Below, piece by piece: positions 1,056 through 35,469 of a stretch of 64,000 nt of DNA (the first letter of the stretch is position 1; each line of letters starts with the position of its first letter). This DNA comes from Sipunculus nudus (lineage: Eukaryota; Annelida; Sipuncula; Golfingiida; Sipunculidae): positions 38,393,079 to 38,457,078 of the forward strand of contig CM049309.1 of the NCBI GenBank assembly GCA_026874595.1, in the 5' to 3' direction. The notes below the pieces were generated by a model, which searched no databases, was not told the DNA's origin, and worked only from the letters and a program-made list of their open reading frames with translations. Made by a program: the position numbers and the translations under genes.

Positions 1056-1181
1056 CATGTGCTTCAACAGTCCCTGCTGCCTCCTTAAATCCTACTGAGT
1101 TCAGCGGGGCATCTGTGCCAATGGCAAACGCTGGGTTCAAACTGGGCACCTCTTGTGACACATTACCCATGTCAGTGGACC
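1056..1181 (-). CDS. PM20D2: PM20D2-like exon 5 (residues 334-374), last exon visible
   Basis: Acceptor GGTTTGCAG and donor GTGAGT flank 126 nt (phase 1 in and out). It encodes STDMGNVSQEVP, then FAIGTDAPLNSVGFKEAAG and TVEAH. In PM20D2 the segment before EAAG contains a conserved His (NHT) that binds metal; here Asn-Ser stands in its place. At least one more exon is needed because the exon ends at a good donor without a stop. Confidence 0.84.
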
Positions 1182-2381: not shown

Positions 2382-2438
<57 letters not shown>

Positions 2439-5400: not shown

Positions 5401-8400
5401 TCTGTTTGATTACTTGGGCTGTAGTGGTCTGGGCAAGTAATGGAACACAGTCATTAGGTCTGTTGTGGCTTAGTGACCAGTGGAACTGGCATTACCTGTA
5501 TTGTTGTGGCAGCTTGTTTTTCATGAGGAGATCTTACCTGTTGTGAACTATGACAAATGGTGCATGTACACTGGAATATATGAGGAGCCCTGGTTTCCAA
5601 TGGTCTTCTACAGGTCAGTTTTGTGAATAGATACATCAAGTAAACTGTGAATGTTGGTGCAAAATTTTCAGCAGTGAAACTGCCTTCATCAGCTGGAGTT
5701 AAGACACCTGATCAAAGCATATCTTAAAAGTTTTGTGCTTTTCACAGTGAGCCAGAGTTATCTAAGAGAGAAATGGGTGTATAATCTCAGCATACAACTT
5801 CTGGATTTTTTTCTCTCTACTATCTATACATGACAGTTTAATGTGAGCACTCTTAACCCATCTTATGATTGTGGACAGGTACCATGATTGGTTTCGGTCT
5901 GGTAGTCAGTTCACTGTCCGACTTAGTTTTTTTTAAACTTTTGGTAAGGAGAAGGGTTTTAGTTTTCCAATGGAGCAATTTGTGAATTGCTACAACAATG
6001 AACTAGTAGTCTTTTTTTAAAGCAGATGTAGCTCAATTGATCTAACCATGAACTATACATGACCTTACGTATAGCATATTCATTATATCAATAATCATGA
6101 ACAGGGCTGTTGTGAGTAACCAATCAGGTTACCCATGGCAATTTAAACAGTCAATCACATGAAAAGTGCAAAATTTGCATAATTTGGGTGACTTTCCAAA
6201 AACAGGGACAACTATACTGCTATAGTCTGTAGGTTAGAGTACCCAACTTTGTATTTTTTCCTGGATATTTTATCTCTGTACAAAGAAGACAGTATAAAAC
6301 TAGAATACGGGTAGTCGAAAAGCGGCAAAATCAGAGTAGGACAGGTGAAGTGAGGCATGGATTGACTGGCAAGGGGAAATAGAGTTACATGTGTTACATA
6401 TTAGAATGGATGTCCGCCACATAAACATGATTGTAGGTGGGGCCACCTGTTATTTGAACGAGAAACTATCCAAGATGTATACACATGCAAAATTTCAGGT
6501 GGAAAAGTCAAACCACTGCAGAGATTGGAGTGATTTTATCCAACAGCAGACAAACAGATGGACGCTGTGCAAAAATGGCTGCAGGTGGCGCCACCATTTT
6601 TGTGCATATTATAAAGCTATCCAAGGTCTACATTTGTGTCAAATTTTTTCCTGATTGGTCAAATGAGTCCTGAGATAGAAGCATTAATGTCTGCAGCGTG
6701 AATGTGAATGAAGCTGGCACCACCTGTCATAAATTCAAGAAAGCTATCCAGGATGTATACACATGCAAAATTTGGTCAAACCACTGCAGAGATATGAGTG
6801 ATTTTAACCCAAAGCAGACAAACAGATGGATGCTGTGCAAAAATGGCTGCAGGTGGCGCCACCATTTTTGTGTATGTTATAAAGCTATCCAAGGGCTACA
6901 TTTGTGCAAATTTTTTTCCTGATTGGTCGAATGAGTCCGGATATATAAGCATGGATGTCTACAGTGTGAACGTGAATGTAGGTGGCACCACCTGTCATAA
7001 AATCAAGAAAGCTATGCGGGATGTTTACGCATGCCAAATTTCAGGTAATTTGGTCAAACCACTGCAGAGATATGAGTGATTTTAACCCAAGGCAGACAAA
7101 CAGACGCAGACTTTTTTCCTGATCGGTCAAACGTTTCCCCGAGATATATGGGTTTTTGTGTGAAAACAGACGCACAAACGGACGCTGAGCAGAGAGGAAA
7201 GGTCAGAGGTCAAGGCCAATTGGTTAGGCACCAGTTCACATGTGACCCGATACTTGGTGTAAGTTTCGGAAAAATCTGTCCGGTAGTCTCAGAGGAGTTC
7301 TCCGGAAATGAACATGGTGGCGGCGGCAGAACCCGGTCAAAAACATAGTATCTGCAAAACTTTGTTTTGGCGGATACAATAATCTGGCCCCAGGGCTGCA
7401 GGAGCTATTACGCTGAATGCTGACTGAAACAATGTCTTACGTTTAATGGAATTTGTACAAGACATCCAAAATATGACAGACCACTTCACAATGACTGACA
7501 TATATTCATCACATGGGAACACAGATATAATCAAACAAAGTACAGCTGATGACGTGAGTCAATGCGGTTTCATACTTGAAAAACCATTGTGATGTCACTG
7601 CCTTACAAACAGCTCTCGCAGCCACAGACATGGAAAGCATTCTATGTTGGAGTGTTTTTGTTGCTCATTTGCATAATTAGGTCAATGACATTATATTGGC
7701 TAGGGTGGTTAGGTATATTAAACAGATGGACAGGAAGACTGGAACACACTTTAGTCCTACCATTTGAACCCTGAAGAAATGCATCTGTTTAAATGGTACA
7801 AAAGGTCAGAGGATATTATGTCACGGTAACTGTCATAATAGCAAACAGGAAAAATCACTTTGTGACATTTTGTCATATGATTTTGACATTTTAAAAGGGG
7901 CTCAAAATGCCACAATTTCTATTTCATTTGAAACACGAACATTGAACTTAATACATATGTCTAAAAAAATCATGCATCTTATATTGGAGAATGTATGATA
8001 CAGCTAAAGTTAAGCTTCTCACCTGTGTGTAAAACCCCTGGATCTTGACTGAAGTCAAGTCCAACTGTCTCTGCATTGGTCTGATAGATGGTTGCCAACT
8101 CATCATTGTGTAGTAATGGGAAGTATGGTCGATCTTGAAAAGTAAACTTAGCCTCTGTGTGTGTTGCCTACAAAAGAAATGTTAAGATAACACATTTATT
8201 TATCATTACATCTCGTCAAACATAATGCAAATTTCAAGCTATCATTGTATCACTTGGCCATAACATTTTGACAAAACTGGTTTCCATGTACTGAAAATTA
8301 ACTGTTATCACAATTTGAAAAATATGACATCTGATGAAGTTTTCAAGACAAGAAAGGACAATTATTATTTAATAAATCAGGGCTTAAAATCAAGTTTAGA

Positions 8401-11080
8401 AACTACTTGCCCCAAGGGCAAGTACCATCTAGCTTTTACTTGCCCTTCAAGAATATTTACTTGTCCTACAATATCAGTTATCGTAGCCAAGAAGACAAAG
8501 CTTGTTCCACATGATAGTGCTGCATGAGTGCATGTTATATTGTTTGTTAGATGATAAACATATTCTAATGCTTGTTTGTGAATAATATTTCTCTTTAGTA
8601 TTTGTATGGATAAACATACAAGTATTTTCAGATAAAAGAGGCATTGTCAGTATTATTTTATTTCTCCATGAAAGATAATGGCTCACTGATGATTTGTCTA
8701 GATTCATGCTTTTGGGTATAGATTTATGTTGGACTCACTTGCCCAAAAGGAGCCGACTACTGGATACTCTCCAACTATTTTCTAGAACTTTTACTTGCCC
8801 CAGGCAAGCAGTTACCAGGCAAGCAGTAAAATGGGGCCCAATCACCTATCTGACCTTTATAAACTAAAGACAATCCCTTGGAGAATTTATAAAAATAGGT
8901 CAGAAAATGTAGATATCACCACACATAGGCTGCTTGTTTTGTTTATTTCAACGTGTTTATAATAATATGTAGGGCCCCGCCAAAAGAATCAAAACAAATT
9001 CAACAAAGGCATCTAGCAGCAAGTCAGATAAGCCAGAGCTTTTCAAAAGGTGTTTTGCAACAAGTGACCTTTCTGCCTTGGCATTTATACAATCTACCAC
9101 CTTAGGTTTCTTGTTTTTCCCGCTTGTCAACACTGCTGTGTTTACAAACATGTTGATGCTAAACAAGTATATACATCCTTCACAGAGGCCTAACGAGAAC
9201 TTTGCACAGTTACCTTTAGATCATTAATATATAAACAGAGGAAGCTGGAAATCACCTAAATTCTTTTTCAAAAGGTAGGTGAATTGGCACCTTTAACCAT
9301 TATTGTCAAGCCATGTATGTGTCAAAAACTACAAGGATACAAATCTTTTGACTTATTAAAGTTCACCTTTCCTGCAGCTACAACACAAGCTGTGCATCTC
9401 TGTTGCAACAGAACCAGGTCAGTATGATCAGGCCCCCTGAGCCAGAACCGTAGTTTACTGGAGCTAGGAATAACATTAGGCTGCACACCACCCTCCTCTA
9501 TGATACCTGTGTCAATAATAAAAAATATATATAAATCAATGTGAGATGAAATTAAAGTTTTCCTTCCCTACCCTTCATTCTCCACACATACACAAATTCA
9601 CTTGCCCTTTTCTCATTCATACATTTGTTTATTGAGTACCAAAAATCCTAATATGAACTGCCTGATGTTAGATACCTTTTTATTGTTTTCACCTCCTGAC
9701 TTGGAGAAAATTTCTCTGAGGCATACATACATCACTAAAAGGGCATTCCTTCTTTTTTTTCAATATAGAATGCAGATGCAACGCTACATGGCACCACCTT
9801 TTAGTGGTGTATCACATGCATTCACACACGTTTGGAAACTGTGCGTTCATTGTGTGCAACAGTTTCCTCATGTAGACTATATAGATCTATAATACAATTT
9901 TTGGACTCTTGTACTTTGGAGATATATTTAAATCCCCTCCTCTTCTGGCAATGTACTCAACAACAGGAGGTATGCAGCTGAAGGCTGGGGTAATCTCTTT
10001 GTAAGCAGAATTGGGATACTGACACCAATTTTCAATTTTGGAAATGAGGTCACAGTTATATTTATTTGAGATCTAACTAAAGGGTTAAGAGGTTTAAAGG
10101 AAACAGGTTTGTTTTTTGCAAATGCTAAGAAGACTCGCATGATTGGCCAACTGTCAAAGCTGAGTGAAACAAGTTTAATCTCAGTTAACTAATAGCTGAA
10201 CCGTTAATGTGACCTAATTTTAGTTTTTACACTAGTCTTTCAGCCAGAAGAATGAAAAGATTCATGCACCAATGAATTTGGCAGACGGAAAATGTGGACA
10301 GATGGATGACTTTTCAGTGGACTTAACGGTTTCTGCTTATTTGTTCATGTTTCACCAAATAAAATTCTAAGAAGGCAGCACTATCATGGTATATATATAT
10401 ATATATATATATGTACCAGCTCTGGAAATATGACTTCAATAATATTATTGTATAATATCAGGTCATGAATTGCCTTGCATTTATTGACTGCCTTGGTTGC
10501 CATGTGACAATGTCTCTCATTAATTTCCAGTCGAGAACCAGTTTTCTATTGTTTTTATTTGGACACTGACACCAACCGACCCACACCCTGCCAAGCCTCG
10601 GTCTCATGACACCGAGAACTGGTCAGTGTCCATTTTGTGCTTGGCAGGTAAGGACTGTTTTTACTTAACTCTTAAACTGCAATAAACCCTAACATTTAAC
10701 CAATTTGGTACTTTCAGTTTTCAGTTTCAGTATATTGTGTTAAGCGTTTATATTCCATATTCCATTTGTAATGCTACTGGGTAATTTATATTTGTTGTAT
10801 ATGCATGAATATTTGTATTCATTGTATTTTCATATTTACGTATTTTCAAATGTAGTTTCTAAAAAGGGCCCATTTATATATTGATTCATGTGTTTTCTCG
10901 TGTATCTGTTACTGAGTAATATGCCCAATTCTCCTGTATATAATCAAGTAATTAATTGTAATGTGCACATTATATGAACTGAATATACCATATATTTTAT
11001 ATTTATCAATAAATCATATGTAAACCAAGAGTGTCCATTTTGTGCTTGGCAGTAACTCTGGATTGGAGCACATGAAGAAA

Positions 11081-11128
<48 letters not shown>

Positions 11129-14100
11129 AGACTTGCTATTCACTCATTCTGGGTGACCAAGGCTCTTGCCTGGAACACACGTTACATATATATAACTATT
11201 AAAATTCAAAATGCAGCTTAATTACATTTTTAAATTTGTGAGATACATAAGTCAATGAACCTAATATTGTCTTTGTCACTTGCTCCAGGGCATACTAAAC
11301 ATCTGGTGCTACAGATAATGAAATATAAAAGACATATTAACTGCAAAAAAGTTGTTAATACCTCTACAGTGTGTACACAAAATAGAGACTTTGTAGTTCA
11401 CTAAATTATAGCTGTCATTTTACATTCAATGTTGTTGAATTCTGAAAGATAAGCCTTGATAAATCAATATTTATATAAAGAATATACAGAAAGTTTGAAC
11501 ACCATGCAGATTATATTTTTGAATACTTGAAGCACGATGCATTTTCACACCATAAACAAGGATAAAACATACTGAACCCCGCACTGCCCAGACTCAGACT
11601 CACAAGAGAACGGCTCTGCTGTTTAGGGATTGATGAGTCAAAATCTGACCCCCACAATGCACCCAGGCTTCTAAATACACCAGCGGCGTATAGGAATTAA
11701 TGTAGTGAAGAGGAATGAATTCTCTCATATATATTAACATGGGTGTTTTTTTTTGTATGGACTTCATGGAATAAGTAATTTTCTGTAAGCATGGGCATGT
11801 TAAATGAAAGTAGAACGTGTTTCCTTGAAATGTAACATATTTTGATTTTGAAGTTTGACATTTGAGATAAGTAGTCCTGGCCATCCAACAGTACTTATAG
11901 ACAATTGAGGTTCATTTTGAATAGAAACCACCTCTAGTGGGAGGGTGACTGAACCCAACATATGACCTTACCGTTTACTGTCCATGTTGGTTTCAGTTGC
12001 TGTCTCAGCAGGGCAATATTGTTGTAGCAGGCCACAGCAGCATCTAGTGCATTTCTTCCCTCCCATGCAAATGCTGAAGAATGCGCAGCTTTCCCAGTGT
12101 ACTCCACCCTCAGTTCAATGAAGGCTAAATGCTCTGGCTTAACTATGTCACAGTTCATTGGAGACAGCATCAATACACAGTCCACATCCTGAAACATGTC
12201 TGCAGCAACAAAATCTATCTTCCCTCCTCCACAATTCTCAGCAGGTGTGCCCAGGACTGTAAGCTGTGAAGAATAATAATGACAGCATTGGAAATCATTT
12301 GTTTATAGCCAAACAGTGTCATATTATTGGGGTCCGTGGATCGGTGATTGGCTGAATCAAATTACATTTATTTTATTATTAAAACAGATGAGTGTGACTT
12401 TTTAATTTTTGATTGGTGTTTTCCTCTGAACTGGAAAAACGGGGGTTGTCTGAGCCAAATGACATGTGAAAGTTCTACCAGTGATAGTACTTGCTGAAAA
12501 CAATTTACTGTTGAAATTATGACAAATCAGTAACAAAGTTTAGCTTACAACTTACAAGTGACCCACAGGTCATGACACTCAGCTGTCAAATCTGTGACCA
12601 TATATCAAATGAGAACTCAGATCAGACCAAGTGGCCCTTGGGTCATGACGCTCAGCTGACTGACATGTTGACAATATGTCCTTAACAGACAACTAATTAA
12701 GGTAATGTAGGTGGCATCATTGTTCATGCATATTAGCTTATCAAGACCCATAAGCACAAGAAATCTGATGACAAACCAACCGGCCTTTCATGAGGACTCT
12801 GGCAATTTTTGTGTATTTTGCATTATTTCTAGGGAGCTCAAACATACCCCAAAACTCTGAGAATATAGTTCACTGTGACCCAATTTCAGGGAGGACTTTT
12901 GAGGAACTCTCAGGATGTCAAGTTAGAAGATTCGGGGCCCAAAGGTTATGATTTTTGCCCTACTTTGGTATCAAATTTTCAATTATTCTGAGGGGTCCTT
13001 ATATTTATAAGCCCCATAGCTCAGAAAATATGGGTAACAGAGACCTAAATACACGTTTCCAAGGAGATTTTCATAGACCTCCCTGGATTTTAGGTTAGAA
13101 GATTCCAGGTCCAATGTTTATGATTTGTGCCCTGCTTTGGTATCAAATTTTTAATTATGATAGGGGGCACTTATAAGCCCAATAGCACAGAGAATATGGG
13201 CAACAGAGACCTAATTTCAGGTTTCCATGGAGACTTTTAATGTACCTCTCTGGATGAAAAGTGGGAAGATTCTGTGTCTAGTAGTGACAATTTGAGTCCT
13301 GTTAACAGATGACGGCATGTTTTGAGGTCTCAAAAATAGATAAAAAAAATAGTAAAAAATAGAAAAAAATACAGGTGGCACCACCAGTCTGCAGAAACTG
13401 ATAAAAAATTTAATGATGAATATCCATTCAAAGAATCATGGTGATCAATGCATTGGTTGTTCAGATACTTGAGCTTTTGTATCAAATTTTTCATTATTCT
13501 GGAGGGTTCTTCGGAGCCCTATAGCTTGAAGAATATGGGAAACAGAGTCCTAATTCCAGGTTTCGAAGTAGACTTTTTATGGGCTTCCCTGAATATTGAG
13601 ACAGAAAATTTAAAGTCCAGCGGTTACAATTTGTGCCCTGTTAACAGATGACTACATCTTTTAAGGTCTCAAAAATAGTGGAAAAAAATCGAAAAAATAC
13701 AGGTGGCACCACTGGTCTGCAAAATCTGATGAAACACTGCATGATTAATATCCACGCTAAGAATCATGGTGTTCAATGCATAAGTTGTTCAGATACTTGA
13801 GCTTTTGTGTCAAATTTTTTTACTATTCTTGGGGGGGGGGGGGGGGGGGGAGGGGTACTTTGGAGCCCCATAGCTTGAAGAATTTGAGTAACAGAGACCT
13901 TATTCTAGGTTTTTCAAGGAGACTTTTCATGGACCTAACTGGATGTAAAGTAAGAAGATTCCAGGTCCAGCGTTTACAACTTATGCCCTATTAAAAGATG
14001 ACAGAATCTTTTAAGGTCTCAAAATAGAGAAAAAAAATTGTAAAAAAATAAAAAAAGTACAGGTGGTGCCACCAGTCTGCAGAAACTGATAAAACACTCC

Positions 14101-17100: not shown

Positions 17101-20100
17101 GGCATGTACATAGGAACTATATAGAAGAATATTTATGGTAAATATGAGAAAAAACAGATGAGTGGTTTTGATATTAGGCAGTCCTGAAGTGTGAAAATAG
17201 GATTTTAATAAAAAATTGAGGTTTTTCCTTAATTTTTCAAAGGAACGAAGTCGCAAAGACCCAGTTTTCAGCTTGGTAGGAGATCTTGGGGACATCTAAC
17301 ATTATGCTGAATTTTGGATTCCTAGGTCTTACGGTTTCAAAACGTGCCACATCTACGGACGGACGGACGGACGGACGGACGGACGGACGGACAGACGGAC
17401 GGACAGACGGACAATGGACGACGACTATAGCTCAGATGACTTATAGTCAGCTGAGCTAAAAATCAATAACTAGCTTAATTTTTAAGCTTTTATTTTCAAA
17501 TTTCAGATTTAGACAAACTAAATATTTATGTTTACATGCTGTGAAAATTAAATCTATGGTGCTTACAGGAAAAAAACGTGCCATGGTCAAAGTTGGGCAA
17601 AATTTAAGGTACTGATTTTTTTTTATGCTAATAACTTAAAAAATTTACAAAATTCATATCTAATTTTGGGTGAAAAATTGAATCTTAATTAAACATAGTT
17701 ATATACTTGAGAAAATAGACTCTAGTTTCAAAATTTTTCATTTTAAGTGAGTTATTATTTTTCCTGATTTTTTACAAAGTCCATTATGTTTGGGCCCATA
17801 ACTTAAATAATTTATATTTTACAGACTTAATTTCTGGCAGGTACATAGGAACTATATAGAGGAATATTTATGGTAAATATGAGGAAAAACAGATGAGTGG
17901 TTTTGATATTAGGCAGTCCTGAAGTGTGAAAATAGGATTTTAATAAAAAATTGAGGTTTTTCTTTAATTTCTCAAAGGAACGAAGTCGCAAAGACCCAGT
18001 TTTTGGCTTGGTAGGAGATCTTGGGGACATCTAACATTATGCTGAATTTTGGATTCCAAGGTCTTACGGTTTCAAAACGTGCCACATCTACGGACGGACG
18101 GACAGACGGACAGACAGACGGACGACGGACAATGGACCACGACTATAGCTCAGATGACTTATAGTCAGCTGAGCTAAAAAATTAAAAAATTCGAAAAAAT
18201 ACAGGTGGCGCCACCAGTTTGCAGAAACTGATGAAACACTCCATGATCAATATCCATGCTAAGAATCATGGTGATCAATGCATTAGTTCTTCAGATACTA
18301 GAGCTTTTGTATCAAATTTTTCTATTTTTCGGGGGGGGGGGGGGGTACTTCAGAGCCCAATAGCTCAAAGAATATGGGTAACAGAGACCTAATTCAAGGT
18401 TTCCAAGGAAATTTTTCATGGACCTCTCAGGATGTAAAGTTAGAAGATTCTAGGTCCAGGGGTTACGATTTGTGCCCTGTTAACAGACAGACGGCCGGAC
18501 GGACCATGGACAAAGAGTGATTGCTTAAGCTCAGATGACTTACAGTCAGCTGAGCTATTTAAAAGCAAATAAAACTGACAGCCATATATGTAACATATAT
18601 ATGGTTGAAATGTACATTTTGTTCTAGTCACTAAAAATTTATCTAGTGGACTGAGTGCATACGAAATGCTGCACAGCACATGGTGTGACCCTGTGTAACT
18701 ACTGGGTAAGGAGCGTATCAGCTGAAATGTTTCCATTAGTCACTTCACTAGGACAGGCTTGGTTACAGACAAAAACAACAAAAGCCTCACATAGATGACA
18801 CAAGGGAGCACGGTAACAGCTTAAATGCTTCTTAATCATTTGTTTGTGAAGTTTTTGTATCAGCAGTTTTAGCACATCAAAGATTAGATAATATTAACTT
18901 ATTCATATGGTGTTTGAAATTTTTAGTTTTCAAAGTAATAGTATATAGATAGAATTGAGCTGTAACAGTAAAGATAATATCAGGTAAATGATAAGAGAAA
19001 TATCAGTCAAATAACTTCTCATTTCCTGCTGTGCCATTGTCACCCCTAACTTAACGTGAAAACTTTACAACGGATATATCCTATAAAACAATAGGATGGG
19101 TTAACGCTCGCCACTTGATTTCATTAATCAAGAAATTAGATCCTGGTCATTACAGGTGACATTTCCAGGTTCTTTTAAGGACGTGTATTAAAATACCAGA
19201 CAATCATACACCTAGATCAATAGAAACTATGAGACATCAGGTTAAATTCACAAATATAATTCAAGACAATACTTACAGAGACACAAATGTGAGTGTGTGC
19301 GTTGATGTGTCAATACGACAGTTCTTCACATTAAAATTACTGGATAATTACTGAGTCCATGGTTTGTATAAAAAAACCATAAAGTCCAGATCCTTCAGAG
19401 ATCTCTGGTTACTGTTTTGTGTAGAATCTAGCGTATGGTTAGCACCATATAGCTCTAGTCTTTCTGAGTTTAGCGATCTTCAGCTGATCTTGCTTGTCAG
19501 CGACCCGGGTAGGTTTACGTTCACATGCATGCAATAACGCTCTTTGTTTATGTAGAGCTTAGAGTCCTTGACCTTGCTCGTGTAGCAACGGTTTCACGGC
19601 TTACGGCGGTTATGTATCTAGGTCAAGCTGAACTAGGCCGGCAGGTGACGAGCGCGCTCTCTCACTTTATCACCAATACGAAGCTCTGTCGGCAGCACGG
19701 CTGAGTTCTCATGAGCTGGGTCCTTGCCTCATGTAGAAGCTTGCTTCCATGCCGTTCCTGGCGTTTCAATGTTCCTACTCCCGTTCGTGCGTGATGCCAC
19801 CTCAAGCTTCAAGACCCAACTGAAGGCAGCCTCCAGCGTCTCTCCCTGAACTCTGACGTCACAATCGTCGTCACATTACGGCGATCCGGTTCTCTGATTG
19901 GCTTATTTCTCAAGTGTCCCTATAAGGATATATGTGACCTAGTTTGACTGTTAGCGTCACCATGGCGACCCACATACCAAATGTAATAATTACACACGAT
20001 GCGTGACACGGATAAATCAGCTGATAGCCGATGGGATTCCATACAAGAATACACAATATATATATATGGGTCATTCCGCAGTAAAATGAGCAATTACGTA

Positions 20101-23100: not shown

Positions 23101-26100
23101 AGCTAAACATATTTACATGTAGCAATACATAGCAATACATAAGGGTCATGTAACAAGTTGTCATTAGTACATGCCCACGGTCTATGACACAGGGCAAAAT
23201 CTAGTACATGTTTAGACTTAACTGGCTAAACATTATAGCTCATTACATCCTAACATTCAGGCAGTCTGCTAAGAAAATCAGGTCCATGGTTTAGTTTACC
23301 TGACACTGCTTCAATATCAAATCTAAACTCTTGTAGAACCAGTGCCCATCTCATTACTCTCTTATTAGCACATTTTGATTTGCTAATACACTTTAATGGT
23401 TTGTGGTCGGTCTGAATGGTGAACGGTCTACAAGCCAGGTACATCTCAAATTTCTGTACAGACCATACAATTGCTAATGACTCTTTCTCGATGGTGGAGT
23501 AATTTCTCTCCCTGGGCAATAGTTTACGACTGGCATAAGCTACTGGGTGCATGATCCCCTCGTGTCTTTGCATCAGGATACAGCCAATACCCACATCAGA
23601 TGCATCACATTTCAAATAAAATTGTTTACTGAAATCAGGTAGCTTCAGTATGGGAGGGTCTGACAGTTTAGCCTTTAGAGAACTGTACGCGTTCTCGTGT
23701 ACGGGTTTCCAGTCTAGTTTGTTAGGTTGACCTTTCCGCGTTAGATCAGTCAAGGGCACCGCTATTTCCGCATAGTTTGGCACAAATTTTCGATAGTACC
23801 CTGTAAGACCTAGGAATGCTCGCAAAGCCTTCTTTGTCTTAGGTCTATCAGTGCTCTGTTTCCCCGTCTACACCGTCAGGATCATGTATAGAATCAGGTG
23901 CGCCCTTGGCTACCGCTGCCAGAATATGCTGGGGCTCGTTTCTAGCATGGTACCGTTTCAGCATATTCACGTGGAAGGTTTTAACCTTATCGCCAATCTT
24001 AATCCGATAGTCTAAGTCCCCAACCCTGTTTACAATAGTATAGGGGCCTTTCCACTGTACCATTAATTTGTTCCGCTCCGTCGGGAGTAACAACAAAACT
24101 TCGTCTCCCGCCTCAAACCTGCGCGTGCATTTACCTCTATCATATACCAGTTTGTGTCTGTTCGCTGATTTGTTCAACGCCTCTCTAGCTAACGCGCATG
24201 TGTCGCTTAGTTTGTCTTGTAGGTCCAGGACGTATTGGTACGTGGTTTTAGTCTCGACGCTAGTATCTCGCTTGGTCCACAGATCCCTTAGAATCCGCAT
24301 CTGTCCTCTAACGATCCTACCATAGAGCAACTCAAAGGGTGAGAACCCTGTGCTCTCATGTGGCGCTTCTCGGTACGCAAAAAGCACGGCGCTGAGGTAC
24401 CGATCCCAATCTCGCGGTCTTTCCTCGCACATCCGTTTCAACATTAACTTTAACGTTCCATTGAATCTCTCCACCATTCCGTTGCACATAGGATGGTAAG
24501 GAGTAGTGGTGAGCTGTCTTACAGACAAAACACGGCTAACTTCTCGCATGAGGTCTGATGTAAATTGTGTTCCCATGTCAGTAAGCACCTCTGACGGCAC
24601 TCCTAACCGCGCATAAATATCAACTAGCGCATCAGCCACAGAGACTGTATCTATGTTCTTTAAAGCAACAGCCTCCGGATATCTAGTGGCATAATCCATA
24701 ACGGTCAGAATATACCTGTGACCTCTCTCAGACGCTGGATGGATCGGCCCAACCAGATCCATCAAAATTCTACGCCAGGGCTCATCAATTAATGGCATCT
24801 GGCCTAACGTAGCTCCAGGCACCTTGCCTTTCGGTATGGTTTTCTGGCAAATGGGACAAGACTTGCAAAACTCAGCAATGTCATTATACATCCCTTTCCA
24901 GAAAAACTGAGTTCTCACGCGGTCGTGCGTTTTGTCTATGCCCTGATGGCCCTCCATAACCGCTTCGTGGCCCATCCTCATTACGTCGTACCGTAACGTC
25001 TGAGGTACCACCACTCGAGATCCATCTTGATCTCCCCGTTTATCACTCACAACCCGAACTAAATATCCGTCCTCAATTCTAAACGGACTATCATTTCTAG
25101 CCTCTCTAGCTAGCCTCCAATACGGCGCTAAAGACCCATCCTCCTCCTGCGCCTTCAAAAATTCAGCCGGACTCACATCGGCAACTGGGCTTGCAACATT
25201 CAAGCTACGCGTCGGTATCTGTTTCTCTCGTGCAGCGCTCCGTGTCTCCACCGCGGACGACACCTCCTTTTGTGACTCTATACCGTCACACACTATGCCT
25301 GAGGACGGCTCAGACTTCCACGTCGGGTCCGGATCATACGGATCACGCGCTCCCGCTACGTTACCTAGCGCTAAATCACATACAGCATCCCCGACCACCA
25401 TTGCCTCGATAGTACCGACAAAGTACGCACAGTCCACATTAATCCTAGCCGTAGGAAATTGTCTTACAGACCCGTCGAACAACCTACACTCGACCTGGTG
25501 TCCGGTGAACTGATTCGGCTCCACGTACGACTCACGTATTCCTGCCGAGGAACATCCCGAATCCCGCAGCACCCTCGCTGACTTACCATTCACCAGCCCT
25601 TCACACACAGGTAACGAGATTCCGCCTTCTGTCTGGGCAGCAAATCCTAACGACTGACTCGGACTCTCTACTTCCGGTTTCACCGCACCGACTGTCTCCG
25701 TTTCCGCCTCGACTACTGCCATTGACATAGTCTCCGGTTTCTGTTTTGGGTTATACGGGGGGCTAAAATTAGTCCTATACCTCTGCTGATCGCCAGCAGC
25801 ACGCCCTACTTGAGGGGAAGACCTAGGCCTCGACCGGGCACTAGTCTTACATTCCCGCGCCTTATGTCCCAGTTCATTACATAAATAACATCTGATGCCT
25901 CCTGATGGCTTAAATGTCTGACCGCCCGGACTGCGCTCAACCTCTCGCTTCTCTCTAGGCTGAGATACCGGTTGCGCTGGACGCGGCACATTATTGCCAT
26001 AACGAGGACCTGCTGTAAGGCTGTGTACACCGTGAGCCTCCGTATAACTCTCGGCTAAGTCTACCATACTATCAAAGTCACGACACCGTCTCTCTTTCAA

Positions 26101-29100
26101 AAACATAGAGAGATCCCTACTACAGCAGTTTACGAACTGCTCACACATCAACAGGTTAACTACCCCGTCGTAGTCACCTCCGACCCCTGCCATCCCTATC
26201 CAATGGTCTAGGTATCCACTCAGTCTCACCGCAAACTGACTCGGCGTTTCGCCTCGCTCAGGCCTACAAGTCCGAAACTTGTGTCGATAACCCTCTTCGG
26301 TCATTTGGTATCGCTTTAACAAGGCTATCTTTAACTTATCGTAATCCATGGCCTCACTAACCGATAACTGTGTGTAAGTCCCTAGCGCCTTACCCCGCAG
26401 TAACGGACTCAGGTGTAACGCCCAATTCTCCCTATCATAGCCTTGACATACAGCTAATCGTTCAAATCGCTCAAGAAACGCATCTAGCTGATCGTGTGCC
26501 TCATCAAAAGGTGGAAGCTGGATTTTCGGGAATACATCCCTACTTCTCTCTTCTTTAACCCCAGAGTCAGACTTTAACCTTAGAACCTCTAATTCGTGGG
26601 CTCTAGCCTCTAGCTCGCGCTCTAATTCCCGCTTCCTAGCTCTTTCCTCACGTTCCTCATCCGCACGCCGTCTAGCCTCAACATAATCTTGTAAAGCCTG
26701 GTCCTTAAGTCCCAAGGCCTGTCCGCATCTAACAAGTGACTCTAACGTCTCCATGGTAACGCTCTAACCTAGTAAGATTCCAGTATCTAGTAATATCCGC
26801 TCTTAAAAATCCGTAAACACGTACTGTTAAAGCCAACCTAACGAACCGGCGGTATCCGTACAATTACACTACGGTAGCTCTACGCATCAAAATCTACTTA
26901 TACGGACGGACGGACGGAAGGTCGGACGAAGGGTCAGACGGATGGACGGATGGATATCAAAATATCAATAAACACCATGCACCTATGATTACCATGCCAA
27001 TCGGGAGGGGTAAACTTACCTGTAAAGAGACCCTACCACGTGACCAATCACAAACCAGTGTAGGAAAAATTATACCAGGGCGTATCTAACAACATCAAAA
27101 ATTTTCACTCTAATCTGGGTTTATATCAAACCAGTAATGATGTTCAGGTATCACTGAACTAGCATTACTCACAAAACATGCATGTGTTCTAGCCAAATCT
27201 TCAAGGTATATGCTAATCCTGAAACAATGTTGTGCTTCAGGTAATATTCTCACTGAATAAATATTAACTCCTAACAGTGGGGTAATTTCATTGAGCAAGT
27301 ATACACTATAACATCAGTTTGGTGTCATTTCCAATTATTAATTCAGATCAACTCTGGTTTGAGTATATGAATGTCTGGTTTCAGTACTGTTTTCTCAGTT
27401 CAAAACTTCTGAAACTTACTGTAATTAGCCAGTTTTTTTTTTTTTTTTTAAGGCTAATTATATCCTGGCACGCTCGCCATACAATGTCACCCCTAACTTA
27501 ACGTGAAAACTTTACAACGGATATATCCTATAAAACAATAGGATGGGTTAACGCTCGCCACTTGATTTCATTAATCAAGAAATTAGATCCCGGTCATTAC
27601 AGGTGACATTTCCAGGTTCTTTTAAGGACGTGTATTAAAATACCAGACAATCATACACCTAGATCAATAGAAACTATGAGACATCAGGTTAAATTCACAA
27701 ATATAATTCAAGACAATACTTACAGAGACACAAATGTGAGTGTGTGCGTTGATGTGTCAATACGACAGTTCTTCACATTAAAATTACTGGATAATTACTG
27801 AGTCCATGGTTTGTATAAAAAAACCATAAAGTCCAGATCCTTCAGAGATCTCTGGTTACTGTTTTGTGTAGAATCTAGCGTATGGTTAGCACCATATAGC
27901 TCTAGTCTTTCTGAGTTTAGCGATCTTCAGCTGATCTTGCTTGTCAGCGACCCGGGTAGGTTTACGTTCACATGCATGCAATAACGCTCTTTGTTTATGT
28001 AGAGCTTAGAGTCCTTGACCTTGCTCGTGTAGCAACGGTTTCACGGCTTACGGCGGTTATGTATCTAGGTCAAGCTGAACTAGGCCGGCAGGTGACGAGC
28101 GCGCTCTCTCACTTTATCACCAATACGAAGCTCTGTCGGCAGCACGGCTGAGTTCTCATGAGCTGGGTCCTTGCCTCATGTAGAAGCTTGCTTCTATGCC
28201 GTTCCTGGCGTTTCAATGTTCCTACTCCCGTTCGTGCGTGCTGCCACCTCAAGCTTCAAGACCCAACTGAAGGCAGCCTCCAGCATCTCTCCCTGAACTC
28301 TGACGACACAATCGTCGTCACAATACGGCGATCCGGTTCTCTGATTGGCTTATTTCTCAAGTGTCCCATATAAGGATATATGTGACCTAGTTTGACTGTT
28401 AGCGTCACTATGGCGACCCACATACCAAATGTAATAATTACACACGATGCGTGACACGGATAAATCAGCTGATAGCCGATGGGATTCCATACAAGAATAC
28501 ACAATATATATATATACAATCAAGACCTGTCAACGCTTTAGGATGACGCTTCACGTCAATATCAATAGAGAACAGACTTCGTTAAACTATGATACAAAAC
28601 ACCGTACATATTGTCACCGATTTCTGGTGACATCCATAAAGCATGTGATCAGATAATACTGAACTGACTTGTTCTGGTCCAGCGACTTTCTAAGATATGC
28701 CTACTGTTACAGCATTCTATGTGCCTGGAGCTGCTCTCCTGGCCTGGTGATATCTATATGTTGGAGCCTGTTAGTGGATCTGGCCCATCTGCCCATGGGC
28801 TCGGCCCATATGAGGATCCGTTATTGATACCATGAACGGTCTGGCCCATCTGCAGATGGGCTTGGCCCAATAACCGATTTTAGTTTTTGTTCGTAATACG
28901 TTATTATTTCATTATCTTAATGAATTTTGTACTCAGATAAACATTTCTCAGAAATTGAATGTGTTTATTTAAACATAAATCACTATCACAGCCTTACATC
29001 AATAAATTTATCATCAAAATTACATAGATGTGCATTCAGTGTTACTGAATCTAAAGGATTCAAAATTATTGATTTGCCTATATATACTCTAGGGGTGTCC

Positions 29101-31745
29101 AAAACACTTGTTATTCCCTCTAAAGCAAAGCCCGGAGAAGAGGTCAGCAAGTATCTACGAGGGTAGTCCCTACTGATAGTCTGTTTGACGTCGCCAAGAA
29201 CATCCACGAGAGGGAGGTGGAACATGCAGGAAATCGAAAGACCATTGCTCATGAAAGTGTTTCATTTATCATGTAAGGTGTATCCGATATTAAGCTGGTG
29301 AATTCATCATACCTAAATGCTTTTATACCCTTAAGTGTTATTTTTGTGTTAGTGACAACCAAATTAACTAGAAAGCACTCACAAAGCACATGCCTCCACC
29401 ACCGCCTGTATACGTACCCATGCAAGTACACCCGGTTATATAACATGAAATAGTATAAGGCCTTTTAGACAAAAAAGGTACAACCCTATCATAATAGTGT
29501 GCCATTTAAACCACCGTTTTGTCATAATTTATTCAATTTATATAATATAGATTTATTTTACATATATGTTTATTGTCCCAAATCCAAACAGGGTCTATAA
29601 ATAAGTTTAGAATAGTTCCTTGTAACCTGAGCTAAAATTTTATTTGATAACAGTGTCCCACACAGACCAAAATTTTTAATATGCAATAATTAACTACATT
29701 TACTACTCGGCTAGTAAACTACATTTACCCTTGGCATCATCTCTGTGATAACCTGAAAAATGGAGTATACTGTCTGACTTACCTGGTGCTCTCATCACGA
29801 GGACACCATGCAACAATTCTGTACGAATGCTAAGTAGAGAGCTTATCAATAAAATGACTCTAAGAGAGTGTTAGCTACATATATAACTATTCTATTGTCA
29901 AAATGTATATGGTAACCTTGATATATATGTGGTTATTTAAAAAAGAATTTGAGAAACTGATTTACTACCATAGATAATTGCTCTTTAGTAAAATTGTATG
30001 GTACCATGGAAGTCACATCTATGTGGTAATGTTAATGGTAATGTAATGTAAACAGCTGAAATTACTCTTTGGTAAAAAGTGAACCTCATTAAACTCTTAA
30101 CATCACACGAATGCAATGTAGACTAATTAAGAATTGTGTGTAAAAGTTATGAAATAGGGTATTTTAACACTGAATGCACATATATATGTAGTTTTCTATG
30201 CACATCTATGTAATTTTTATGGTAAAATTATTGATGTTAGCTAGGCTGTGATAGTGATTGATGTTTCAATACACACATTTATGTTCTTAGACATTTTTGT
30301 CTGAGTACAAAAGTCATCAAGATAATAAAATGATAACACATTACTAACAAAAATGAAATCGGTTATTGGGCCAAGCCAATCTGCAGATGGGCCAGAGTTC
30401 ATGGTATCAAATCCGTTATTAGGCTGCCCATCTGCAGATGGGCAGCCCAATTACGGATCCTCATATGGACCAACCCCATCGGCAGATGGGCCAGATCCAC
30501 AAACGGGCTCCAACACATATAACACTGGGCCAGGAGGTGGCCTCTGGGGGGGGGGGGGGGGGAGATGGTGTTTGATAACCTTGGGCACTTCACTGGACAG
30601 AACAAGCAACAGCCATGAGATAGCAAAGTTCATCCCACATATACTGCTGGTCTTTAATGACTAAAATCAGTAAAATTATATGGCACATGAACACATTCAA
30701 TCAAACCCAGTTTGTTGACCTTGCTGTTGCAAGGGGATATAACTGTGATTATCCCCTCCCCTCCCCCATATTTAACTTGAAAAGATTGGGGGAAATTTAA
30801 TGGCCACTCATTTGAAATCTATATAAATTTTAATCCCAATTTAGGTATTATACGTAATCTTAAGGAATAACTGCCCAGTAAAACCTGTCTGGCTGCTATG
30901 CCTTACCACATGAAATTGTAAAACTCATACTTACTCATATTTCATTCAATTTTGGAGCAAATTCAGCCAATTTCTTAATAAAACTAAGTTGTGAACTTGT
31001 GCAAAAGTAACAAACAGAACGCATGTGAAAACATCCATGAAAATTGAAAAGTATTAAAATAATTGAAACTTTTTGAATTGGGAAGTGATTTTGCAATGAA
31101 CAAAAATGATTTGAACTGAATTGGAATTTTTCTCCAGCACATTGTCATTTTTAATAATTGAATTTGAAAATTTTGAAATTACCCCAGGTTTGAGGACAAT
31201 ATTTTTGGCAGGTACTAATTTATTTCGAAGAGAAGTCGCTATTCTGTCGTGTTTATTCAATTTGCTTTAGGTGATTAGGCCCCTTTAACTTCAGCTGGAA
31301 AAGCCAGTAAAAACCTGATACGTACCACTGCAGGCTTGACGGAACCGTCCATCAAACATCTTTTTACAGCTACTGCGGCAGCAATACTGGCCACAGCACA
31401 CAGATTATGACCTGCTGCATGGCCAAGTTCTGGAAGAGCGTCATATTCGCAAAGCAAACATATATTCGGCAACTTCTTGTCTCCCGAGGCACCGTCTTCT
31501 GCAGAAGGTTTGTACTGAGCTTTGAACCCTGTTGGAAGTACACATTTTCTCTCAACACTAAAGCCTTCCTCGGCCAGGAAAGCCGTGAGGATATCATGTG
31601 CTTTTGTCTCTTTGAAAGCCAGCTCCGGATTCATCCATATTTCAGTACTGATATTACGTAACCTATCTCTGTTGTCATTTATGCATGACTGGATCGCTTC
31701 CAGCATAGTGTCTGCCAATGCCATCCTCACGCCAGCATAGGTCAT
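1056..31745 (-). CDS. PM20D2: PM20D2-like M20-family amidohydrolase gene, five exons seen, 3' end missing
   Basis: Five exons join in phase (420, 292, 140, 145 and 126 nt) to give about 374 residues; human PM20D2 has about 436, so some 50-60 C-terminal residues are missing, probably beyond the left edge. All introns are GT-AG. Recognisable blocks in order: LCEYDALPELGHAAGHN (residues 98-114), LGTPAENCGGGK (144-155), YTGKAAHSSAFAWEGRNALD (the dimerisation/substrate block, H201), KPTWTVNG, GGVQPNVIPS, GSTDMGNVS and FKEAAG. PM20D2 family members hydrolyse dipeptides that carry a basic residue and act in metabolite repair in the cytosol. Here three metal-ligand positions known from M20D enzymes are changed: Cys to Ala at 111, Glu to Asn at 150, and the C-terminal His to Asn360/Ser361. 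The general-base Glu149 and H113/H201 remain. Frames and splice sites are clean, so an expressed but possibly inactive paralogue is likelier than a pseudogene. Confidence 0.86.
1322..2102 (-). mobile_element. Pearl-like repeat fragment (about two A units)
   Basis: Two degenerate copies of the A unit that recurs at 16700-18176, 40061-41440 and 45717-46440. Marker blocks are ctggcatgtacataggaac, tttgcgactttgttcctttg (read on the minus strand) and acgtgccatggtcaaa. The copy is cut by the TIR element starting at 2103. A short piece of the family's palindromic end survives at 4466-4486, just right of that element. Confidence 0.68.
2374..2463. repeat. (TA)n microsatellite
   Basis: About 90 bp of nearly pure TA with a few interruptions. 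The chance frame through it is low-complexity and not a gene. Confidence 0.95.
2944..3002. repeat. (GATA)n-type microsatellite
   Basis: Interrupted GATA/TAGA repeats of about 58 bp inside the 2103-4451 element. A (CT)n run of about 26 bp follows at 3391-3416. Confidence 0.9.
4452..6299. other. Intronic DNA, mostly unrecognised
   Basis: The first 35 bp keep a remnant of the pearl-like palindrome (cttatagtcagctgagct). The stretch to about 5200 has blocks of the type 'tgaccttgaa/aaggtca' and 'acaatttgtgtgtcaaattt', which recur in other decayed repeats here (compare 53330-53500). A 104-codon plus-strand frame at 5232 shows no recognisable domain and is not called. Confidence 0.45.
6300..7379 (-). 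mobile_element. Helitron-like element with GGTGGCGCCACC tandem units, copy 1
   Basis: Read on the minus strand it begins with a hairpin made of gtatccgcc, aaaac and their complement (7348-7377). It contains diverged units carrying the ggtggcgccacc palindrome and ends near 6300 in cgtattCTAG followed by T, which fits a Helitron 3' end (CTRR, inserted before T). The same hairpin and end occur in the copies at 46590 and 62596. No protein is encoded; short frames in it are repeat translations. Confidence 0.68.
7380..8022. other. Intronic DNA, nothing recognised
   Basis: This stretch lies between the Helitron-like copy and exon 4 of the PM20D2-like gene. No repeat or coding signal stands out. Confidence 0.5.
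8023..8167 (-). CDS. PM20D2: PM20D2-like exon 4 (residues 285-332)
   Basis: Acceptor TTTTGTAG and donor GTGAGA flank 145 nt (phase 0 in, phase 1 out). This is the less conserved part of the C-terminal catalytic domain and includes NDELATIYQTNAETVGLDF. It ends in the split Gly that opens the GSTDMGNVS motif. Confidence 0.82.
8378..8840. mobile_element. hAT-like non-autonomous element, decayed
   Basis: The left edge reads cagggcttaaaatc and the right edge (inverted) gggccccattttactgcttg, with several short tracts of 'acttgcccc/ggggcaagt' just inside each end. A related left end lies at 52354. CAGGGCT termini are typical of animal hAT elements. No clean target duplication is visible, so the limits are approximate. 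Confidence 0.48.
9367..9506 (-). CDS. PM20D2: PM20D2-like exon 3 (residues 239-284)
   Basis: Acceptor GACACAG and donor GTGAAC flank 140 nt (phase 1 in, phase 0 out). The translation runs IIEEGGVQPNVIPSSSKLRF and continues into a helix-rich stretch. It matches the strand of the PM20D2 dimerisation domain that carries GGV-PN-IPS. Confidence 0.84.
9507..11971. other. PM20D2-like intron 2
   Basis: Apart from the direct-repeat structure at 10561-11052 and TA microsatellites at 10389-10412 and 11083-11125, nothing is recognised. Short frames at 9602 and 11600 lack any supporting feature. Confidence 0.5.
10561..11052. repeat. 23-bp direct repeats around about 380 bp, with an inverted stem at the left
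   Basis: The sequence starting agtgtccattttgtgcttgg occurs at 10625-10647 and 11030-11052. Just left, ggacactgac (10561) pairs with gtcagtgtcc (10622) as a 10-bp stem. The 380-bp interval ends with aataaa (about 11010), but no poly(A) follows. It may be an insertion with a long target duplication or a decayed terminal-repeat element. Confidence 0.4.
11972..12263 (-). CDS. PM20D2: PM20D2-like exon 2 (residues 141-237)
   Basis: The acceptor TTCACAG precedes the exon and the donor GTAAGG follows it (phase 0 in, phase 1 out). The exon encodes LTVLGTPAENCGGGK, then the start of the lid/dimerisation domain with YTGKAAHSSAFAWEGRNALD and LLRQQLKPTWTVNG. His201 is kept. The usual Glu-Glu pair (general base plus metal ligand) reads Glu-Asn (gag aat), a two-base difference from any Glu codon. 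Confidence 0.87.
14379..18176 (-). mobile_element. Inserted pearl-like element with two internal tandem duplications
   Basis: It starts caagatacctatgggtcac, next to ctcagctgacg, and ends with the 29-bp palindrome (18148-18176) after an ACGG tract. Inside, a block of about 1.17 kb is present twice (14379-15548 and 15549-16700), followed by two A units of about 0.73 kb (16727 and 17460), each with an ACGG microsatellite and a palindromic end. Poly-G runs lie at the same place in each 1.17-kb copy (15374 and 16537). Paired open frames on the minus strand (14444 and 15603) are duplicates of this block, not genes. Confidence 0.7.
17354..17410. repeat. (ACGG)n microsatellite of a pearl-like unit
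   Basis: About 13 ACGG repeats with a few substitutions, directly before the palindromic terminus. Shorter equivalents lie at 18094-18125, 18485-18505, 40105-40120 (as CCGT) and 58141-58175. Confidence 0.9.
18558..19037. other. Intronic DNA between two insertions, nothing recognised
   Basis: About 480 bp of AT-rich DNA. Its last five bases, gccat, nearly match tccat to the right of the LTR element and probably mark the retrotransposon's target duplication. Confidence 0.5.
19038..23029 (-). repeat. 3' LTR of the gypsy element, interrupted at 20068-22908
   Basis: The two parts, 19038-20067 and 22909-23029, together match the intact LTR. The total is 3 bp longer, or about 4 bp allowing for one indel, which suggests a 4-bp duplication within the TA run when the DNA transposon entered. 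The end reads GGCGACA instead of GGTGACA. Confidence 0.92.
20068..22908. mobile_element. 2.84-kb DNA transposon nested in the LTR
   Basis: Terminal inverted repeats begin GGGTCATTCC(G/A)CAGTAAA and agree at 23 of 26 positions. The motif GTCAACTCCGTCAC or a one- or two-base variant occurs at 20455, 20645, 20799, 20814 and 22347, and inverted at 20828 and 22706. The pair at 20814/20828 forms a 28-bp near-palindrome. No intact transposase is visible; a 117-codon minus frame at 21426-21779 is the longest and matches nothing I recognise. I cannot assign the superfamily. Insertion happened after the retrotransposon integrated, because the other LTR lacks it. Confidence 0.82.
23250..23838 (-). pseudogene. 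RT thumb plus RNase H remnant of the gypsy pol
   Basis: In a different frame from the upstream polyprotein and overlapping its stop, the sequence reads DRPKTKKALRAFLGLTGYYR, the thumb/connection region that follows the RT palm in Ty3/gypsy enzymes. An RNase H domain follows: CDASDVGIG (first Asp), EKESLAIVW (Glu) and TDHKPL (Asp), ending in HGPDFLSRLPEC. The fingers and palm with the YxDD active site are absent. The first ATG (23825) lies inside the conserved block, so independent translation is unlikely. The frame ends about 220 bp before the 3' LTR. Confidence 0.86.
23848..26754 (-). CDS. Retrotransposon Gag-protease-integrase polyprotein (968 aa)
   Basis: A single uninterrupted frame. Residues 20-70 form a charged coiled coil; 75-245 are a retrotransposon Gag domain. 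A CCHC zinc knuckle follows (C289, C292, H297, C302). An aspartic-protease-like region has D398-S399-G400 and DLALGN near 460. The integrase has an HHCC zinc domain (H596, H603 region; C633, C636), a D,D35E core (D666, D726, E762; exactly 35 residues between the last two) and a GPY/F module (G903-P904-Y905). Integrase follows protease directly, with a linker of about 80 residues and no reverse transcriptase between them, unlike standard gypsy order. The ATG at 26754 begins METLESLVRC and leaves a leader of about 730 bp after the LTR. The frame closes with TGA. Confidence 0.93.
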   Translation of the reverse strand: METLESLVRCGQALGLKDQALQDYVEARRRADEEREERARKRELERELEARAHELEVLRLKSDSGVKEERSRDVFPKIQLPPFDEAHDQLDAFLERFERLAVCQGYDRENWALHLSPLLRGKALGTYTQLSVSEAMDYDKLKIALLKRYQMTEEGYRHKFRTCRPERGETPSQFAVRLSGYLDHWIGMAGVGGDYDGVVNLLMCEQFVNCCSRDLSMFLKERRCRDFDSMVDLAESYTEAHGVHSLTAGPRYGNNVPRPAQPVSQPREKREVERSPGGQTFKPSGGIRCYLCNELGHKARECKTSARSRPRSSPQVGRAAGDQQRYRTNFSPPYNPKQKPETMSMAVVEAETETVGAVKPEVESPSQSLGFAAQTEGGISLPVCEGLVNGKSARVLRDSGCSSAGIRESYVEPNQFTGHQVECRLFDGSVRQFPTARINVDCAYFVGTIEAMVVGDAVCDLALGNVAGARDPYDPDPTWKSEPSSGIVCDGIESQKEVSSAVETRSAAREKQIPTRSLNVASPVADVSPAEFLKAQEEDGSLAPYWRLAREARNDSPFRIEDGYLVRVVSDKRGDQDGSRVVVPQTLRYDVMRMGHEAVMEGHQGIDKTHDRVRTQFFWKGMYNDIAEFCKSCPICQKTIPKGKVPGATLGQMPLIDEPWRRILMDLVGPIHPASERGHRYILTVMDYATRYPEAVALKNIDTVSVADALVDIYARLGVPSEVLTDMGTQFTSDLMREVSRVLSVRQLTTTPYHPMCNGMVERFNGTLKLMLKRMCEERPRDWDRYLSAVLFAYREAPHESTGFSPFELLYGRIVRGQMRILRDLWTKRDTSVETKTTYQYVLDLQDKLSDTCALAREALNKSANRHKLVYDRGKCTRRFEAGDEVLLLLPTERNKLMVQWKGPYTIVNRVGDLDYRIKIGDKVKTFHVNMLKRYHARNEPQHILAAVAKGAPDSIHDPDGVDGETEH
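26755..27484 (-). other. Retrotransposon leader with possible tRNA primer site
   Basis: Untranslated stretch between the 5' LTR and the gag ATG. It holds a degenerate ACGG run (26903-26955), a poly-T tract (27431-27449) and, five bases inside the LTR, TGGCGAGCGTGCC, a plausible primer-binding site (the TGG pairs with tRNA CCA). The matching tRNA is not identified. Confidence 0.6.
27485..28632 (-). repeat. 5' LTR of the gypsy element (intact)
   Basis: 1148 bp, with terminal TGTCACC...GGTGACA inverted ends. It carries a TA run (28505-28516) that is the insertion site in the other LTR. For transcripts on the minus strand this is the promoter copy. Confidence 0.93.
28736..30536. mobile_element. 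Element with long terminal inverted repeats (about 260 and 295 bp)
   Basis: The left arm (28736-28996) and the inverted right arm (30241-30536) share ctcctggcc at the tip, then gttggagcc, ggatctggcccatctgc, atatgaggatccg, ggcttggcccaataaccga and atcactatcacagcct at the inner edge. The right arm has about 40 bp more, an extra palindrome copy. The 18-bp perfect palindrome GCCCATCTGCAGATGGGC occurs at 28844-28861 and 30426-30443. The 1.24-kb centre has weakly protein-like frames at 29080-29450 but no recognised transposase. It lies about 100 bp from the gypsy LTR. Confidence 0.7.
30537..31325. other. Remainder of PM20D2-like intron 1
   Basis: A poly-G run (about 30547-30562) adjoins the long-TIR element. 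Beyond it nothing is recognised up to the exon 1 donor at 31325. Confidence 0.5.
31326..31745 (-). CDS. PM20D2: PM20D2-like exon 1 (residues 1-140)
   Basis: The start at 31745 is favoured because an in-frame TGA lies three codons upstream on the minus strand; the next in-frame ATG is at residue 8. The exon ends at codon GTG before the donor GTACGT (phase 0). It carries the N-terminal catalytic-domain helix (ISTEIWMNPELAFKETKAH) and the EYDALP and GHAAGHN motifs. In M20D enzymes the second motif is normally HACGH, where Cys binds metal; here it is HAAGH. Confidence 0.88.
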
Positions 31746-34900: not shown

Positions 34901-35469
34901 TGTTTACCAATAGAGTTTCTCACCTGAATTACCTTCTCATCAAAATTCATGCATATTTAATGAGGTCAGAGGTCACAGGATATGCGATGGTCATATTATG
35001 TATATTTGCAAGGCTCATGTTACACTGTTTGTCTTGGCCCCTTTCTTCACACTCAGCACTGTTATGTCACACAATTACCACTTCACTAAGGGACAAACAT
35101 GGTCACTTGTAAACAGACAAATTACAGTGACACCTTGAATCTCAGATACATACACAGACTACCAGGTCATAAAGTGAATAATATTTATTTCATGATCATT
35201 TGGCTTATTCTGGTCTAGTAGCAAGTTTAGTTTTACGGTCCAAGTAATTAGTAACCAAAAGATTATTAGAAAAAAATAATGTGGCCAGGGGTAGTTGAAC
35301 AGACTATGTCACATTAATTCTGCAGCATCTGATTTACTCTTTGTTCATCACACTTCAGTTTATGATATCTGACATCTGTTCAGCATTTTATTTATTTAAA
35401 AGTGTGGTGATTTATTAATATGTTCACTTGTTGTCAGTTGATTCTTCAGATATAAATTTTCTTTTTCAG
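31911..35469. other. Probable 5' UTR intron of the DNAJC14-like gene, with repeat debris
   Basis: The coding exon at 35472 follows a splice acceptor, so a non-coding first exon should lie upstream. Debris includes fragments with 'ggcgccacct' or 'ggtggtgccacc' near 32856 and 33880, a decayed piece like the element at 51000 (32628-32702), and three imperfect repeats of about 180 bp at 34550-34985 (markers: aactcat, 'cacctaagttcgat', 'atgaggtcagaggt'). The plus frame at 31802 starts in the promoter and shows no domain. Confidence 0.45.

Follow-up and report, generated by a model that had tools for sequence, protein, structure and literature searches.

Many metallopeptidase families are known to include pseudoenzymes. 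Among the systems that bear on the gene described here are MPP, a member of family M16, and PM20D2, whose substrates are dipeptides of the beta-alanyl-lysine type. According to excerpts of a 2024 pseudometallopeptidase review (PMC11266112), the MPP alpha subunit is without zinc residues and contributes residues to a working enzyme; across that review, 'M20' occurs solely inside two reference DOIs. Sections of PMC5082436 describe the p-aminobenzoyl-glutamate hydrolase of E. coli as one enzyme made of two unequal, mutually similar subunits, AbgA and AbgB, that are relatives of CPG2; one of the ligand positions in AbgB is a Gly. PpILR1, an IAA-amino-acid hydrolase, loses its hydrolytic activity through the mutation Cys137Ser, which affects the first ligand position, but retains another function (excerpts of PMC8149794). 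A limited search of the open-access literature, covering titles and the starts of abstracts, turned up no recognisable M20 or PM20D2 pseudoenzyme or pseudopeptidase, and an unnamed orthologue group of the protein described here may already exist among animal proteins.

Here, we analyse a gene whose predicted product has the catalytic Glu, the lid trio, GSTD.GNVS and EAAG in common with PM20D2 (ACY1L2, Xaa-Arg dipeptidase; PDB 7YH4, 8ZEI, 8XZC, 8ZEL), and differs from it in that four of the five metal ligands are replaced. The S. aureus M20D peptidase HmrA (PDB 3RAM), with its ligand motifs HACGH, PAEE, IHP and GHT, is likewise unlike our protein at these positions. AbgA and AbgB differ from it as bacterial operon partners in an active manganese enzyme, whereas any partner of our protein is putative. 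The MPP alpha subunit is comparable to our protein as a homologue without zinc residues, and comes from another metallopeptidase family.

The window, by which we mean the whole stretch of 64,000 nucleotides that was analysed, corresponds to C4:38393079-38457078 of a 1.43-Gb assembly, and its edge cuts off the 3' end of the PM20D2-like gene. Five exons on the minus strand join with canonical AG/GT borders and consistent phases into 374 stop-free codons, and a sixth exon lies just beyond the edge:

Exon 1, 31326..31745, minus strand: aa 1-140, ending in phase 0 with donor GTACGT; EYDALP and GHAAGHN.
Exon 2, 11972..12263, minus strand: aa 141-237 plus 1 nt; GTPAEN, MLSP and GKAAHSS.
Exon 3, 9367..9506, minus strand: aa 238-284; GGVQPNVIP; holds lid Asn248 and Arg261.
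Exon 4, 8023..8167, minus strand: aa 285-332 plus 1 nt; placed by open frame, splice sites and phase; aligns to human PM20D2.
Exon 5, 1056..1181, minus strand: aa 333-374 plus 1 nt; GSTDMGNVS, PLNSVGF and EAAG.
Exon 6, C4:38392577-38392414, outside the window, about 0.5 kb beyond window position 1: family profile match with fitting acceptor and phase.

Exon 6 completes a PM20D2-like protein of 428 aa with a stop, intact over six exons, and in-frame stops lie upstream of the ATG. Over the acceptor and first codons of this exon, a near-identical stretch of about 46 bp is repeated at 58-bp spacing (L088 9440-9560, adjoining the window). The repeat gives two candidate acceptors, and the downstream one leads into a family-like C-terminus. 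The initial annotation had spliced the five exons inside the window by hand, and the borders, matching phases and stop-free frame bear out both the exons and their joins; the residues it quoted (Ala111, His113, Glu149, His201, Asn150 and Asn360/Ser361) are all found at those positions of the spliced translation.

The gene model is computational, and a splicing or assembly artefact would mean that the real mRNA is put together from different exons, whose ligands are normal. We regard this as extremely unlikely. A tblastn search with a human fragment reveals no tandem or alternative exon with normal ligands in the window, and no motif exon is mis-spliced. Matches on contig C4 in the genome searches comprise this gene's exons and one chance-level hit (E 9.7). 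The ligand replacements are, as first described, spread over three clean exons with intact splice sites, and at three of the four codons they involve several nucleotides each.

Intron 1 and the neighbouring part of the window hold three further features:

LTR-type retro-element, 23250-26763, minus strand: inside intron 1; one 971-aa frame with SCAN-like, zinc-knuckle and integrase domains.
Direct repeats, 19035-20067 and 27482-28515: flank the retro-element; blocks of 300 and 150 nt, 99% identical, 8447-8448 bp apart.
Open frame of 533 aa, 35442-37043, plus strand: candidate single large exon; no Pfam match at E 0.01 (523 aa searched).

Downstream of the 971-aa frame comes RNase H, in a frame preceded by little reverse transcriptase, and this order of integrase before RT/RNase H presumably recalls the Gmr1 group of Ty3/gypsy elements. 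The direct repeats are perhaps the terminal repeats of a young insertion, or perhaps a segmental duplication.

The 374-aa spliced protein matches human PM20D2 (Xaa-Arg dipeptidase, PDB 7YH4) over aa 19-373 with a phmmer E of 2.6e-81 and identity at 147 of 355 aligned residues (41%), and matches S. aureus HmrA over about 350 aa (E 3.3e-43). M20_dimer (PF07687) scores above its curated cut-off at aa 188-280 (32.2 against 21 bits). With this 374-aa query, which ends before the last exon, Peptidase_M20 (PF01546) falls just under its cut-off (23.9 against 24.6 bits), and the NCBIfam amidohydrolase model TIGR01891 also stays below (135.6 against 153.75 bits, E 2.3e-39). Exons 1, 2, 3 and 5 and one unrelated frame gave no match at E 0.001 when scanned singly against Pfam, whereas the spliced protein matched. 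A plasmid search returned 254 bacterial records at less than 60% identity. By near-full-length sequence homology, the gene encodes a member of the PM20D2 family. An animal source would fit this closeness to the human protein, and also the spliceosomal introns and the size of the assembly.

Alignment to human PM20D2 gives the metal quintet of the window protein as Ala-His-Asn-Ser-Asn, where the human residues Cys142, His144, Glu183, His207 and His395 are taken as ligands by homology to described M20 sites, not from coordinates:

Ala111, codon GCA, 31413..31415, minus strand: replaces the metal ligand Cys (human Cys142).
His113, codon CAT, 31407..31409, minus strand: the sole retained metal-ligand column (human His144).
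Asn150, codon AAT, 12234..12236, minus strand: replaces the ligand Glu (human Glu183).
Ser174, codon TCT, 12162..12164, minus strand: replaces the ligand His (human His207).
Asn360, codon AAC, 1099..1101, minus strand: replaces the ligand His (human His395).

Residue 150 and Ser174 are 24 positions apart, as are human 183 and 207. The same spacing of 24 separates Glu173 and His197 around the predicted Mn of PpILR1 (excerpts of PMC8149794), and the spacing of Glu176 and Glu200 in CPG2 also matches (sections of PMC5082436). The initial annotation had counted three of five ligands as replaced, listing His201 among the ligand positions. Its assignments of Ala111, His113, Asn150 and Asn360 hold, and its count becomes four of five with the addition of the Ser174 column, which it had missed. 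His201 is ruled out as a metal ligand, as it aligns with human lid His234 and lies inside the dimerisation-domain match. By our count, the codons of the four replaced ligands (GCA, AAT, TCT and AAC) lie at least eight nucleotide changes away from the closest codons for Cys, Glu and His.

The protein could still be an active enzyme with a rebuilt site, holding its metal on other residues or using a metal-free mechanism through Glu149, His113 and His201, and candidate residues for this are present: Glu149, His113, His109, Asp102, Asp336 and the lid trio. We nevertheless judge this to be very unlikely. One ligand of five is left; Cys, Glu, His and His are poorly replaced by Ala, Asn, Ser and Asn; and in PpILR1 the exchange of one Cys for Ser is enough to stop hydrolysis (excerpts of PMC8149794). 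The changed metal site that was first offered as an alternative is disfavoured by the same remaining ligand and the same replacements. The window protein is, on this reading, very probably catalytically dead.

The catalytic-base column and the lid residues show the opposite state, with all four kept:

Glu149, codon GAG, 12237..12239, minus strand: catalytic-base column kept (human Glu182).
His201, codon CAT, 12081..12083, minus strand: lid-domain His kept (human His234); no metal ligand.
Asn248, codon AAT, 9475..9477, minus strand: lid Asn kept.
Arg261, codon AGG, 9436..9438, minus strand: lid Arg kept.

Alignment to human Glu182 confirms that the catalytic Glu149 is kept, as had been claimed. 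For the lid, our argument draws on CPG2 and PepD as treated in parts of one review (PMC6271292), which gives the lid residues of CPG2 as His229, Asn275 and Arg288 and describes the trio in relatives as clamping the substrate across the dimer. The spacings from His to Asn to Arg are 47 and 13 in the window protein against 46 and 13 in CPG2.

A site of this kind might serve a stand-alone binder, with an emptied pocket (Asn, Ser, Asn) and an intact carboxylate clamp, acting putatively as a carrier, sensor or buffer for a dipeptide or an N-acyl amino acid. In its favour, Glu149, the lid trio and GSTDMGNVS are all kept, and the metal-ligand positions are now polar or small. Pocket composition alone is no proof of binding, however, and His237Asn and other changes near the site could alter the pocket; we hold this reading to be possible but rather doubtful.

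A protein search of the assembly placed the window gene on C4 and its relatives on C5, C6, C9 and C15, at 13 other family loci (five on C5, five on C6, two on C9 and one on C15):

PM20D2 expansion, C5:47.015-47.053 Mb, C6:20.734-20.800 Mb and C9:38.659-38.683 Mb: tandem copies.
PM20D2 single copy, C15:23.141-23.164 Mb.

Searching with the human fragment recovered the same loci and added a stop-containing piece by C5g1, a further exon on C15 and one weak match to a contig of bacterial appearance. The residues of the paralogues come from local tblastn alignments rather than full gene models, and pieces with E of 0.3 or above or on the other strand were dropped; read in this way, 11 of the 13 loci carry Cys-His-Glu-His-His and two (C5g1 and C5g4) are incomplete. 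C5g4 reads Cys-His-?-?-His, the exon with two of its ligands not being found. C5g1 is a broken copy, in the stretch covered an exon-1 fragment with the stop-containing piece beside it, and was left out of the invariance counts and the tree. The initial annotation had proposed a search of the genome for an active paralogue, and the 11 loci that are ligand-intact by sequence are predicted to be active. With the window and human queries, and with C5g1 and C5g4 partly readable, we found no second ligand-less copy in the genome.

Six small contigs (C105, C109, C113, C117, C136 and C138), with 53-55% GC against 36.6% for the window, also carry M20-family genes, whose frames are uninterrupted. These contigs are likely bacterial, from symbionts or contamination, and their M20 (Pfam-family) hits were not counted as paralogues.

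The paralogues on C5, C6, C9 and C15 show 41-46% identity to the window protein over aligned exon parts. At four-fold sites the window gene differs by 0.53-0.76 from the 13 paralogue loci, which is at or near saturation. Exon breaks near aa 140, 238 and 284-290 are common to the window gene and the paralogues. A break that the paralogues show near aa 187-191 has no counterpart in the window gene, which in turn has an intron at aa 333, where the paralogue piece runs through in 12 of the 12 loci with a last-part piece; the C15 paralogue has a further break near aa 81-93. From this pattern of common, missing and extra breaks, we take the window gene to stem from an old duplication rather than from retrocopying. 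A recent retrocopy is ruled out by the presence of introns, three of them at positions common to the paralogues.

Two of the ligand-intact copies have changes in the lid: C15 has Ser at the Asn248 column, with the lid Arg kept, and C6h1 has Ser at the Arg261 column. Because the lid trio of the window protein is complete while these copies are altered, one could picture a split-function heterodimer resembling MPP alpha/beta, in which the window protein would be a dedicated lid donor, supplying in trans what a catalytic paralogue with an impaired lid lacks. We consider such an arrangement unlikely. Change of the lid Asn alone may be mild, as PepD loses only about half of its activity when this Asn is changed to Ala, and CN1 and CN2 naturally carry Thr at the position (excerpts of PMC6271292).

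How specific the loss of ligands is can be judged against a comparison set of 81 sequences, consisting of the best 80 of 517 confirmed prokaryotic relatives (a similarity-ranked sample) and human PM20D2. All 81 of these homologues carry Cys-His-Glu-His-His. In this set of the best 80 of 517 plus human, 26 columns are invariant in 81 of 81, and the window protein keeps 21 of the 21 non-ligand columns and one of the five ligands (Fisher p 3.3e-4). When invariance is relaxed in the same set, the non-ligand columns lost number 2 of 35 at a 97.5% threshold (Fisher p 8e-4), 6 of 43 at 95% (5e-3) and 8 of 57 at 90% (4e-3); the looser thresholds weaken the ligand contrast, yet it persists, and His237Asn in the lid region is among the changes that they admit. 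Once the paralogues from this genome join the set, 23 columns are universal; the window protein retains 19 of them, and those that it loses are exactly the four replaced ligands. The same 23-column count finds no loss in human PM20D2 and zero or one in each of 12 paralogues, the single losses being Asn248Ser in C15, Arg261Ser in C6h1 and Gly244Gln in C6h2, with none in the other nine. Judged by four of five ligands lost against none of 21 other invariant columns (best 80 of 517 plus human), the pattern is not one of plain decay.

Restricting the comparison to animal sequences, the window protein loses four of five ligands and nine of 70 other invariant columns (p 0.003). The nine include Ile116Cys and Glu118Val, and because both are close to the metal motif, the surroundings of the metal site have moved as well. 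General relaxation could be a fit to these nine changes, and they count in favour of a young pseudogene, a non-functional copy that would not yet have gained a stop or frameshift. So do the broken or incomplete family copies in the genome (C5g1 and C5g4) and the long branch of the window protein. In an unrooted protein tree of the window protein, human PM20D2, 12 paralogues and the first 12 of the 80 prokaryotic sequences as ordered in the alignment, this branch measures 0.95 substitutions per site and attaches on the same side as the C5/C9 clade, at a split with support 90; deeper splits of the tree are weak in places (support 35, 52 and 69).

Several lines of evidence stand against a young pseudogene. 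The six exons are intact, with correct splice sites and phases, and all four losses among the 23 universal columns are ligands. Differences between the window gene and C5g5 at codon positions 1, 2 and 3 are 0.445, 0.326 and 0.686, and those between C15 and C5g5 are 0.408, 0.290 and 0.682; the order in the window gene is that expected under protein constraint, as in other deep pairs. By a crude argument that assumes equal rates and ignores indels and rate variation, about 2.5 stops should have arisen in a neutral frame of 374 codons by a distance of 0.06 substitutions per site, where the probability of none is 0.08; at 0.1 substitutions per site the probability of no stop is 0.016. At these same two distances, the 15 ligand nucleotides would take at least eight changes with a probability of 5e-6 and 2e-4. 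Because the stop-free frame leaves little time for at least eight ligand-codon changes, neutral drift fits poorly. We hold a young pseudogene to be quite improbable, and the gene is probably maintained by selection.

We consider it likely that the window gene encodes a PM20D2-family pseudoenzyme, dead but maintained, that dimerises with active paralogues or binds a dipeptide-like ligand. The initial annotation had proposed a PM20D2-like pseudoenzyme with a non-hydrolytic role, and that proposal gains support from the loss of four of five ligands, from the ligand-intact paralogues and from the confinement of invariant-column losses to the ligands. In the mechanism that we propose, replacement of four of five ligands would have led to loss of the catalytic metals, and the protein would not hydrolyse dipeptides. 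The protein retains the M20D framework along with the catalytic Glu149 and the lid trio His201-Asn248-Arg261, and it would still dimerise. Through its retained dimerisation domain, the protein may then act as a non-catalytic dimer subunit, or as a dipeptide-binding regulator, of active PM20D2 paralogues. Because of the precedents of PpILR1, AbgA/AbgB and MPP, we favour a non-catalytic partner or regulator role by analogy, with a stand-alone binding protein as its close rival; that the protein acts by dimerising with active paralogues is a putative step, which we put forward tentatively.

Beside the normal PM20D2 copies elsewhere in the genome, the window gene is probably a functional relative that is not an enzyme. 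Its product has had the metal site removed and the dimer-spanning substrate clamp kept, and eleven ligand-intact sister loci are available for comparison in the same genome. Whether an M20 dimer can function with one catalytic and one clamp-donating subunit is a question that would be directly testable here.
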